64,000 nt of DNA. Origin: Opitutus terrae PB90-1. GTDB taxonomy: Bacteria; Verrucomicrobiota; Verrucomicrobiia; Opitutales; Opitutaceae. Positions 35,062 to 36,475 of this stretch are shown here, in pieces (within the stretch, counting starts at the first letter, position 1; the number at the start of each line of letters is the position of its first letter). The DNA is taken from assembly GCF_000019965.1 (NCBI RefSeq), contig NC_010571.1, forward strand, positions 4,845,001 through 4,909,000, given 5' to 3'. A program made the translations under genes and the position numbers. The notes under the pieces were generated by a model. The model was not told the DNA's origin, ran no database searches, and saw nothing but the letters and a program-made list of their open reading frames with translations.

Positions 35062-36111
35062 TCACCGCGCCACCGCCGGCTCCGGATGCCGCAACGCCCA
35101 GAGCGCTTTCGCGTCGGTAATCGTTTTCTTCAACGCGTCCGGCGTGAGAGCCTGCTTCGGATCGTCCCCGATGCCCTTCGCCGGCTCGACGTGCGCCTCG
35201 ATGCATAATCCGTCCGCGCCATACGCAATCGCCGCCAGCGCCGCCGCCGGCACATACGCGGCCTTGCCGACGGAGTGCGACGGGTCCACCACGACCGGCG
35301 CCCAGGTCTTTTCCTTCAGCAGCGGCGTGATGCTCTCGTCCGGCTGATTCCGATACCCGTCCAGCGCCGGCGACGTGCCACGCGGACACAGGATCACGTT
35401 CGGATTCCCAAAAGCCACGATGTATTCCGCCGCCGAGATGAACTCGCTCAGCGGGCCCATGTGGATGCTGCGCTTCAGCAATACCGCCGTCGGCCGGCCC
35501 GCGATCGCGCGACCGATCTGCCGGAGCAGCGAGTAGTTCAGCGCGTTGCGCGCGCCCACCTGCAAGGTCGCGACGCCGGCGTCCAGCGCCAGCTTGATCT
35601 GCGACTCCTCCATCACCTCGGTGTCGACCGGCAACCCCGTGCGCCGCGACGCTTCCATCAGGATGTCGAGCGACTTCACGTCGCCTTGGAACGTATACGG
35701 ATTCGTCCGCGGCTTCCACACACCGCCGCGCAGCGCGTTCGCGCCCGCCTCCTTCACCGCCACGGCCGTCTCATAAAAGTAGCTCGGATTCTTCGGGTCG
35801 ATGGTGCACGCGCCGGCGATGACCAGCAGTTCTTCGCCGAGCGTCACCCCACCGAGCTTGATCCGGTGCGAGGCGAGATCGGAGCGCTTGTCCATAAGCT
35901 TGAACGGAGACTGGATCCGGTCGATCCGCTCCACGTAATCGAGGCCCTCCAGCCGGTTGATCATCAGCTCGTCGCGCTCGTCGCCGACGATCGCGTAGAT
36001 CGTGCGCACGGCGCCAACGATCGGCTGAATCCGGCAGCCGAATTCTTCGACGATGCCGGTGACCTGGGCGAGTTGCTCGGCCGTGAGACGGTTGGATTTT
36101 GGGAGGATCAT
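35062..36111 (-). CDS. aroF: 3-deoxy-7-phosphoheptulonate (DAHP) synthase, type Ib
   Basis: A 349-residue enzyme that condenses phosphoenolpyruvate and erythrose 4-phosphate, the first step of aromatic amino acid synthesis. Residues 1-70 ('LAQVTGIVEEFGCRIQPIVG..') form the ferredoxin-like regulatory domain found in the Thermotoga-type enzyme, which mediates feedback inhibition. The barrel has 'LLVIAGACTIDPKN', 'LRGGVWKPRTNPYTFQG', 'VLLKRSIHMG', 'LCPRGTSPALDGYRNQPDES' and 'VVVDPSHSVGKAAYVPA' with the metal and substrate residues. A leader peptide rich in aromatic residues and an attenuator-like terminator lie immediately upstream (36125-36274), so expression is probably controlled by the aromatic amino acid supply. 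Confidence 0.95.
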   Translation of the reverse strand: MILPKSNRLTAEQLAQVTGIVEEFGCRIQPIVGAVRTIYAIVGDERDELMINRLEGLDYVERIDRIQSPFKLMDKRSDLASHRIKLGGVTLGEELLVIAGACTIDPKNPSYFYETAVAVKEAGANALRGGVWKPRTNPYTFQGDVKSLDILMEASRRTGLPVDTEVMEESQIKLALDAGVATLQVGARNALNYSLLRQIGRAIAGRPTAVLLKRSIHMGPLSEFISAAEYIVAFGNPNVILCPRGTSPALDGYRNQPDESITPLLKEKTWAPVVVDPSHSVGKAAYVPAAALAAIAYGADGLCIEAHVEPAKGIGDDPKQALTPDALKKTITDAKALWALRHPEPAVAR

Positions 36112-36126
36112 GGTGGAGGTGAGTTG

Positions 36127-36159
36127 GAAAAACAGAAAAGCCGCCTCGCGGGCGGCTTT
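36127..36159 (-). terminator. Attenuator (terminator) hairpin ahead of aroF
   Basis: On the minus strand AAAGCCGCC (36151-36159), a five-base loop and GGCGGCTTT (36137-36145) form a nine-base-pair stem followed by TTTTCTGTTTTT. It sits between the leader peptide stop and the aroF start, where an intrinsic terminator makes sense only if it can be bypassed. Confidence 0.85.
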
Positions 36160-36274
36160 GGGCGAAATTCAACTTGGGTTTTCAGCTCTAGTTGTCGCGA
36201 CAGCCGCCAGCATGTTGCCGGGTAAAGTAGCCCCAGAAACCAAAGCTGAAATAGTAGCCGACGGCGGCGTTCAT
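36137..36274 (-). promoter_or_regulatory. Transcription attenuator of aroF (four-segment leader RNA)
   Basis: Reading along the transcript, four segments alternate between GCCGCC and GGCGGC: segment 1 in leader codons 3-4 (36263-36268), segment 2 in codons 23-25 (36202-36208), segment 3 the 5' terminator arm (36151-36159), segment 4 the 3' arm (36137-36145). Pairing 1:2 and 3:4 gives termination; pairing 2:3 is an antiterminator. A ribosome stalled on the aromatic codons (7-17) would cover segment 1 and free segment 2. A ribosome at the stop codon (36188-36190) would mask segment 2 and allow termination. This is the trp-type mechanism, inferred here from sequence alone. Confidence 0.8.
36188..36274 (-). 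CDS. aroF leader peptide, 28 residues, aromatic-rich
   Basis: An ATG-initiated 28-codon frame ending in TAG, 76 bases upstream of aroF. Residues 7-17 are YYFSFGFWGYF: three Tyr, four Phe and one Trp in eleven codons. This covers all three end products of the pathway that aroF opens. The rest is unremarkable (start 'MNAAVG', end 'TRQHAGGCRDN'). No Shine-Dalgarno sequence is visible ahead of the ATG, and the candidate -35 box at 36306-36311 is close enough that the mRNA may be leaderless. It is far too short for ordinary gene callers. A comparable peptide attenuator for aroF has been described in Corynebacterium, to my recollection. Confidence 0.85.
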   Translation of the reverse strand: MNAAVGYYFSFGFWGYFTRQHAGGCRDN

Positions 36275-36282
36275 CGTGCGCA

Positions 36283-36311
36283 CAAATGGGCGCCGCCCGT
36301 TCGCTTGTCAA
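36283..36311 (-). promoter_or_regulatory. Candidate promoter of the aroF leader
   Basis: A perfect TTGACA box lies at 36306-36311 on the minus strand. At a 17-base spacing the -10 position reads CATTTG, a poor match. If used, transcription would begin within a few bases of the leader ATG. Confidence 0.35.
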
Positions 36312-36475
36312 TCCTGCGGTCCGTATTGTGAGTGGCACGGGCGTCTCGCCCGTGAGGATTGGCGGTGCAGTCGACCAAGTTGCCCGAGGTCCCATTTGCG
36401 TCCCGGCCCCAAAACTGTCCCGCGTCGGCTATCCACAACCCCGGTCCACGGGCAAGATGCCCGTGCCACACCCAT

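Follow-up and report, generated by a model that had tools for sequence, protein, structure and literature searches.

The pheL-pheA and trpL-trpE attenuators of E. coli follow a four-segment plan, in which the leader peptide contains regulatory codons for products of the pathway. DAHP synthase is better known for allosteric and repressor control. Attenuation in front of a DAHP synthase gene is known from C. glutamicum, where the AroR-aroF transcript is said to be leaderless. According to the available portions of PMC11802643, which also mentions the two E. coli attenuators, the AroR leader of aroF is characterized by Phe-Tyr-Phe, and limitation of Phe leads to ribosome stalling and increased transcription, with no effect of Tyr availability. 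This paper and PMC7356990 credit the AroR-aroF attenuator to Neshat et al. (2014, J Biotechnol 190:55), and detection of the AroR leader is reported in an excerpt of PMC4046766. In S. meliloti, the trpL attenuator RNA (rnTrpL) is leaderless, with its 5′ end at the ATG of the leader ORF, as stated in the accessible section of PMC7298713. The authors of a 2010 paper wrote, in the passage available, that to their knowledge no leader-peptide systems had been shown outside Proteobacteria and Actinobacteria before their Firmicutes case (PMC2965389). Among the matches listed in a search of the open-access literature, none describes amino-acid leader-peptide attenuation in Verrucomicrobiota; the candidates on ermB in Akkermansia and on EF-P do not, in the portions available, deal with amino-acid attenuation in this phylum and were rejected.

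Here we analyse the aroF locus in a window of 64,000 nucleotides from the verrucomicrobial genome of Opitutus terrae PB90-1, in which aroF is very probably preceded by a ribosome-mediated transcription attenuator that tunes the gene to the supply of charged aromatic tRNA. An earlier note on this DNA had proposed such an arrangement from the sequence of the window; the aromatic leader observed there is real, and the comparative evidence supports the attenuator interpretation as largely right. The control is of a known type, in a phylum for which a search of open-access papers yielded no such description, and its geometry is unusually clear. The note was not aware of a description for Verrucomicrobiota; the same plan, which the note did not mention, is known for aroF of C. 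glutamicum.

The window locus resembles AroR-aroF in that a leader peptide with both Phe and Tyr codons is located directly upstream of the DAHP synthase gene. The two differ in phylum, and the 37 leaders found in the window's family contain six to nine aromatic codons each, with Trp codons in 20 of them. With pheL-pheA and trpL-trpE of E. coli, the window leader shares the four-segment plan and the product codons, whereas the gene behind it encodes the entry enzyme of the common pathway and several amino acids are represented in one peptide. In addition, unlike the E. coli attenuators, it has neither an SD-like motif nor a match to the Rfam family Phe_leader at the gathering score. Like the S. 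meliloti trpL RNA, the attenuator RNA would start at the leader ATG, a 5′ end that is known in S. meliloti and predicted here, whereas the S. meliloti attenuator belongs to trp operon genes in Alphaproteobacteria.

The aroF gene (35062-36111, minus strand) encodes a DAHP synthase with an N-terminal ferredoxin-like domain (Pfam PF00793, E 2.4e-40; PF18152, E 1.5e-9). The leader ORF of 28 codons (MNAAVGYYFSFGFWGYFTRQHAGGCRDN; 36188-36274, minus) is present where the earlier note had placed it, its stop codon separated by 76 nt from the aroF ATG (36111). Eight of the 28 codons are aromatic, and the stretch YYFSFGFWGYF (residues 7-17) is aromatic at 8 of 11 positions. Homologous frames exist at 36 other family loci, the ORF has no Pfam match at E 0.001, and a DNA search with the leader region against its own single-contig genome (5,957,605 bases) returned one match, itself. 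The -35 box TTGACA of the putative leaderless promoter (36306-36311, minus) has its first base 37 nt before the leader ATG.

The four alternating GCCGCC/GGCGGC segments that the note had listed are all present on the minus strand. Segment 1 (GCCGCC, 36263-36268) occupies leader codons 3-4 and is complementary to segment 2 (GGCGGC, 36203-36208), which occupies codons 23-24, provides the 5′ arm of the predicted antiterminator and is nearly invariant in a 28-sequence alignment. A hairpin, P1 (CTGGG/CCCGG, 36218-36236, minus), whose pairing in the window was assigned by eye, lies within the aromatic codons, the last of which, Phe17 (36224-36226, minus), ends 15 nt before segment 2. Segment 3 (AAAGCCGCC, 36151-36159, with GCCGCC at 36151-36156) serves both as the 5′ arm of the terminator and as the 3′ arm of the antiterminator, and segment 4 (GGCGGC, 36140-36145) together with the T tract forms the 3′ side of the terminator (36128-36145). 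Inside the outer antiterminator arms, GCGA (36195-36198, minus) pairs with TCGC (36162-36165, minus) in the predicted fold. The terminator-like stem AAAGCCGCC-CGCGA-GGCGGCTTT (36137-36159, minus) is followed by the T tract. This stem and T run, also named in the note, were recovered by a terminator scan over 701 bases, which returned two sites against a shuffle mean of 0.5, the other being a 5-pair stem inside the leader (36259-36276). In silico, the locus combines three features of an attenuator: a short ORF rich in product codons before a biosynthetic gene, a terminator between the two, and a predicted antiterminator, exclusive with the terminator, whose 5′ arm a stalled ribosome would leave free.

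Rfam matches to P9, RcsR1 and isrK, all below the gathering score, correspond to the terminator stem and were rejected. An inverted repeat (GCACGGGC...GCCCGTGC) was also noticed at 36330-36471 of the window, between the pseudouridine synthase gene and the leader promoter. An Rfam match to MIR1883 over the same positions (E 0.003, 30 of 128 bits) is this repeat and was rejected as well.

From the anatomy, conservation, geometry and compensating helices, all obtained in silico, we infer the start site, the stalling and the switching as follows. RNA polymerase would start at or within about 2 bases of the leader start codon, producing a leaderless transcript that would be translated at once. When Phe- or Tyr-tRNA is scarce (in the window possibly Trp-tRNA too), the ribosome would stall among codons 7-17, and even a stall at the last aromatic codon would leave segment 2, 15 nt downstream, uncovered. 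The free segment 2 would then pair with segment 3 (GGCGGCU...GCGA with UCGC...AGCCGCC), so that no terminator would form and aroF would be transcribed. When aromatic tRNAs are charged, the ribosome would reach the stop codon and cover segment 2, and the 3:4 terminator would form. If the leader is not translated, the 1:2 pairing would sequester segment 2, favouring termination.

Conservation was assessed in a family sample of 150 genomes, in which AroF was found in 130. Upstream DNA was read for 126 of these (30 loci and 96 regions), with four partial AroF matches (G072, G086, G087, G128) left out; two of the 126 loci are cut by contig ends (84 and 16 nt), leaving 124 informative. A leader was counted if an exact TTGACA lies 33-43 nt before the start codon of an ORF of 10-45 codons containing at least four aromatic residues that make up at least 17% of it. 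Such leaders are found at 37 of the 126 loci when 700 nt are considered and at 34 when 320 nt are considered. Dinucleotide-shuffled 320-nt regions gave a mean of 0.05 leaders per set with a maximum of 1 (20 sets), and the reverse complement gave none. The fold of the window's leader region beats its own shuffles moderately (z -1.87; 9 of 200 shuffles equally good); it is the comparative control that is convincing. The 37 leaders look homologous, as in VNRFSAYYFSFAFRGYFTRKNQGGCREN, VIRFAAYYFSFGFWAFYALKHLGGCREN, MLQSFAYFFFAFAGFFAPRTMGG and VNRFAASFSFTFAGYFSPQTAGGLSQRKP, and occur in 11 of the 45 sampled genera having AroF (genus g32 being represented by a truncated stretch only). The earlier note had stated that its reading would fall if relatives did not conserve the short frame or the stems; in these 11 genera the frame is conserved together with the -35 box, the terminator and the predicted antiterminator.

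The leader is lacking at 87 of the 124 informative family loci and at the 23 order-level loci read, from among 38 order-level genomes with AroF (L153 offers only 157 nt upstream). In one of the 87, L106, a divergent aromatic ORF and a terminator are present, but the -35 box is absent. Another locus, L055, passed a loose criterion only, with one mismatch in the -35 box and no terminator, and was dropped. In L077, L081, L087, L101 and L102, the leader stop is located 182-256 nt before aroF, with the terminator still close behind the leader; L081, L087 and L101 were missed at 320 nt and gained at 700 nt. The extra stretch in L077 and L087 contains a G+C-rich inverted repeat.

These observations bear on a simpler account, in which an ordinary intrinsic terminator between two genes ends upstream transcription, the aromatic ORF next to it is due to chance, and aroF is transcribed from a promoter of its own. 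Intergenic terminators are common, and in many relatives aroF lies behind the pseudouridine synthase gene without a leader, but the frame, the aromatic codons, the -35 spacing and the antiterminator arm recur together in 11 genera and hardly ever in shuffles. Moreover, the -35 box precedes both leader and terminator, which means that the terminator affects RNA made from the leader promoter, and we consider this account very unlikely compared with an attenuator. On an AroF tree of 90 rows, 13 of them with a leader, presence changes at least 8 times (shuffled mean 12.4), and well supported branches require at least 2 of the changes. The resemblance among the leaders hints at a common origin followed by losses; the tree itself fits one origin or several. 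In some relatives without the attenuator (L007, L009-L012, L015, L018, L029, L030), the stop codon of the pseudouridine synthase gene seems, by eye, to lie within a TTGACA (TTTGACAG) near aroF, suggesting that a direct aroF promoter may be used instead.

An exact TTGACA was a condition of the search and is therefore present in all 37 leaders. Its position is more informative, as its first base precedes the start codon by 35-38 nt in 36 leaders and by 41 nt in the remaining one, though 33-43 nt were allowed. With ordinary sigma-70 geometry, this spacing would put the start site at the leader start codon or within about 2 bases of it. The start codon is ATG in 19 leaders and GTG in 18, and none of the 34 leaders of the 320-nt set has an SD-like motif (GGAG, GAGG or AGGA) at -18 to -4. 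The -10 region is degenerate: counting from the first T of TTGACA, offset 23 is C in 34 of 34 leaders and offset 24 is A in 82%. No -10 box is recognisable, and a consensus scan of the window region returned no sigma-70-type promoter. Since aroF itself also has no obvious Shine-Dalgarno motif, the absence of this motif is a weak argument when taken alone, and the -35 spacing is the stronger one. The leader transcript is probably leaderless, as the note had suggested, with the start site deduced from the spacing and the missing motif. The locus would add classical ribosome-mediated attenuation, probably in a leaderless form, to Verrucomicrobiota.

Phe and Tyr codons are present in all 37 leaders. 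The idea that one peptide responds to Phe, Tyr and Trp fits the codons of the window, but it does not extend to the whole family: Trp is missing from 17 of the 37, so that Phe and Tyr appear to be the conserved input and Trp an optional one. Among the 15 leaders of exactly 28 codons, codons 11, 13, 16 and 17 are aromatic in 93-100%, and codon 14 is mainly Trp (TGG, 7 leaders) or Arg (CGG, 6 leaders). The aromatic stretch is kept by class, Phe and Tyr interchanging at several positions.

The distance between the regulatory codons and the antiterminator is conserved. In 34 of the 37 leaders (the exceptions being L084, L092 and L093), exactly 15 nt separate the end of an aromatic codon from segment 2, and in 32 this codon is the last aromatic one; this count rests partly on choice, the list of segment-2 spellings having been widened for L008, L022, L084 and genus 20, and, as the 37 leaders are related by descent, it does not represent 34 independent observations. 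The position of the stop codon, by comparison, is variable, with the first base of segment 2 ranging from 24 nt before to 3 nt after the first base of the stop codon. In five of the six genus-20 leaders, segment 2 lies just after the stop codon or overlaps it, and seven other leaders end in Gly-Gly-stop, the stop directly following the segment-2 glycines. In leaders with such early stops the downstream pairing bases persist untranslated, for example CGCGAAACC in L013 and L014. Because segment 2 and its flank persist although the stop has moved, this stretch is kept as RNA rather than as peptide. The constraint thus appears to act on the RNA and on how far the antiterminator lies from the regulatory codon, which is what would be expected of a switch operated by a stalled ribosome. 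Judged from the sizes of ribosome footprints, a ribosome stalled on the last aromatic codon would just leave segment 2 free. A ribosome at the stop codon would cover segment 2 in most variants, marginally so in genus 37 (-24 nt). Across the family, the place of the stop and the peptide thus vary from leader to leader at a constant distance between regulatory codon and antiterminator, a natural series on which ribosome-footprint models of attenuation can be tested directly.

The same leaders allow another explanation to be weighed, namely that the leader peptide itself stalls the ribosome by nascent-peptide arrest, or controls the translation of aroF by coupling, with no tRNA-limited stalling or termination. 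The C-terminus GGCREN/GGCRES, conserved in part of the family, could resemble an arrest peptide, yet its nucleotides persist in the seven leaders ending in Gly-Gly-stop and in the five genus-20 leaders that stop before or at segment 2; as they persist without translation, the C-terminal conservation looks like RNA pairing. The interchange of Phe and Tyr within a stretch conserved by class also counts against this explanation, as does the terminator found by pattern behind 36 of the 37 leaders. We regard this explanation as highly improbable, and the terminator-antiterminator switch of an attenuator is considered further.

The terminator pattern, GCCGCC-loop-GGCGG plus T tract, covers all leaders but L080, which has a stem with an interrupted T tract. 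Folds and shuffle tests were run on the 34 leaders of the 320-nt set. The outer antiterminator helix GGCGGC:GCCGCC, formed between segment 2 and the 5′ arm of the terminator, is mostly shared among the predicted folds. The inner helix is GCGA(A):TTCGC in 16 of the 34, GCAA(A):TTTGC or TTGC together with CC:GG in three genus-37 leaders, and GC.TAAACTG:CAG.TTTA.GC in six leaders of genera 40 and 27. L008 has a shifted inner helix, GGCTGCGGC:GCCGAAGCC, and L084, which pairs poorly, has the weakest predicted antiterminator. Compared with dinucleotide shuffles, the inner region has a z below 0 in 34 of 34 leaders (genus mean -1.44, with 11 of 11 genus means negative; window z -0.90). The predicted antiterminator is supported by these inner helices, which differ between clades while the pairing persists. 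The calculated stability of the antiterminator exceeds that of the terminator in 24 of 32 leaders and falls below it in 8, L008 and L022 being excluded since the script mis-picked their segment-2 positions; for the window, the values are -21.4 and -14.6 kcal/mol, respectively.

Synonymous shuffles were applied to the 29 leaders in which the ORF contains segment 2, which it does not in five genus-20 leaders. P1, which is seen in many predicted folds, is better than in the shuffles in 27 of the 29 (11 of 11 genus means negative; window z -0.8), and the 1:2 pairing is better in 25 (9 of 11 genus means negative; window z -0.8). When segment 2 is shuffled synonymously, the 2:3 duplex has only a slight advantage (z below 0 in 25 of 29, mean -0.70; 0.0 in the window), a weak preference that probably reflects the almost exclusive use of GGC for the segment-2 glycines. 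Taken by itself, the window gives a weak signal in all three tests. Of the mutually exclusive pairings proposed in the earlier note, 2:3 and 3:4 are seen in the predicted folds, but the 1:2 pairing is weak in the window and is retained in only 9 of the 11 genus means. RNAalifold on the 28-sequence MAFFT alignment of the main group returned the terminator only, both partners having changed in 2 of its 8 pairs; in our reading, the antiterminator is missed because the inner helices are out of register between clades. The six genus-20 leaders gave 23 pairs, 5 of them with changes on both sides.

A structured leader with terminator and antiterminator might also be expected of an RNA switch bound by a metabolite or a protein (a riboswitch or the target of an RNA-binding protein), in which the ORF would be incidental. 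An Rfam search of the leader region, however, gave no family at the gathering score, the best relevant match being Phe_leader (RF01859, 23 of 55 bits, E 0.22). Furthermore, conservation follows the codons, and the leaders of distant families combine dissimilar RNA with the same amino-acid make-up. Such a switch is extremely unlikely, the least probable of the alternatives, and the distant leaders are described below as putative attenuators.

In a phylum sample of 145 genomes, 71 have an AroF match, and 65 AroF sites outside the order were read (15 loci and 50 regions), four listed sites being left out; the AroF proteins at these sites are 35-46% identical to that of the window. An aromatic ORF followed by a hairpin was picked by eye at 14 of the 65 sites (L270, L274, L282, L284, L285, L286, L288, L289, L290, L293, L307, L309, L332, L334), which span seven family labels (f36, f38, f41, f46, f50, f52, f53). 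By eye, these leaders have no obvious sequence similarity to the window leader. A script found a terminator with T tract 19-37 nt after the stop, as well as a stretch complementary to it within the leader or immediately behind, in 13 of the 14; the site for which it found no terminator, L282, has a strong hairpin but lacks four consecutive T. Clear pairings are CGGACAC...CGGT with ACCGCGTGTCCG in L334 and GGGGCTTGC with GCAAGCTCC in L293, and a compensating change distinguishes AAGCGGGG:CCCCGCTG in L284 from AAGCAGGG:CCCTGCTG in L289. L309 and L288 are weaker cases, and L273 is a possible fifteenth, with strong complementarity between leader and hairpin and a poor T tract. Some distant leaders have an ordinary promoter and spacing, as in L274, where TTGACA-17-TATATT is located well upstream of the ATG; leaderlessness therefore looks like a trait of the window's family. 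Aromatic ORFs were also seen, outside the count and outside any formal test, at two order-level loci (L138, L147) and at L277, L306, L310, L312, L313, L319, L326, L328, L330 and L333.

Together, these comparisons suggest that DAHP synthase is a recurrent target of attenuation. On balance we think it probable that attenuation of aroF by aromatic leaders is widespread and has been repeatedly rebuilt in Verrucomicrobiota. The window's family would have a homologous leaderless form, which keeps the 15-nt spacing though the stop moves past the antiterminator arm, and dissimilar forms would occur under seven other family labels; as part of the same proposal, the window's family would also use a short leucine leader before 2-isopropylmalate synthase.

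The pentamer TTTAG was noticed in 13 of the 14 distant leaders (all but L270), where it mostly consists of the last Phe codon and an Arg or Ser codon starting with AG, shortly before the antiterminator arm.

At other loci of aromatic biosynthesis, the exact-TTGACA criterion applied to 30 trpE-type and 30 pheA loci yielded three short ORFs, none of them aromatic or followed by a terminator. A Trp-rich short ORF was seen upstream of trpE at 4 of 27 loci (L162, L169 with two adjacent Trp, L178 and L180), which may be due to chance or may represent a trp leader of another design.

A second short-leader control, of leucine type, is likely before 2-isopropylmalate synthase, judging from the upstream regions compared. 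In the genome of the window itself, a short conserved ORF, MRILGQALRLTSAHDL, precedes this gene at L249 (G000:C1:5402699-5403349), a locus with no match in Rfam. Similar ORFs are found in relatives (L204, L209, L210, L213, L245-L264). In most cases TTGACT or TTGACA precedes the ATG by about 36-41 nt, and most of these leaders are followed by a hairpin resembling CGCACGATC...GATCGTGCG. A short ORF containing LRL is present in 18 of 20 regions upstream of 2-isopropylmalate synthase.
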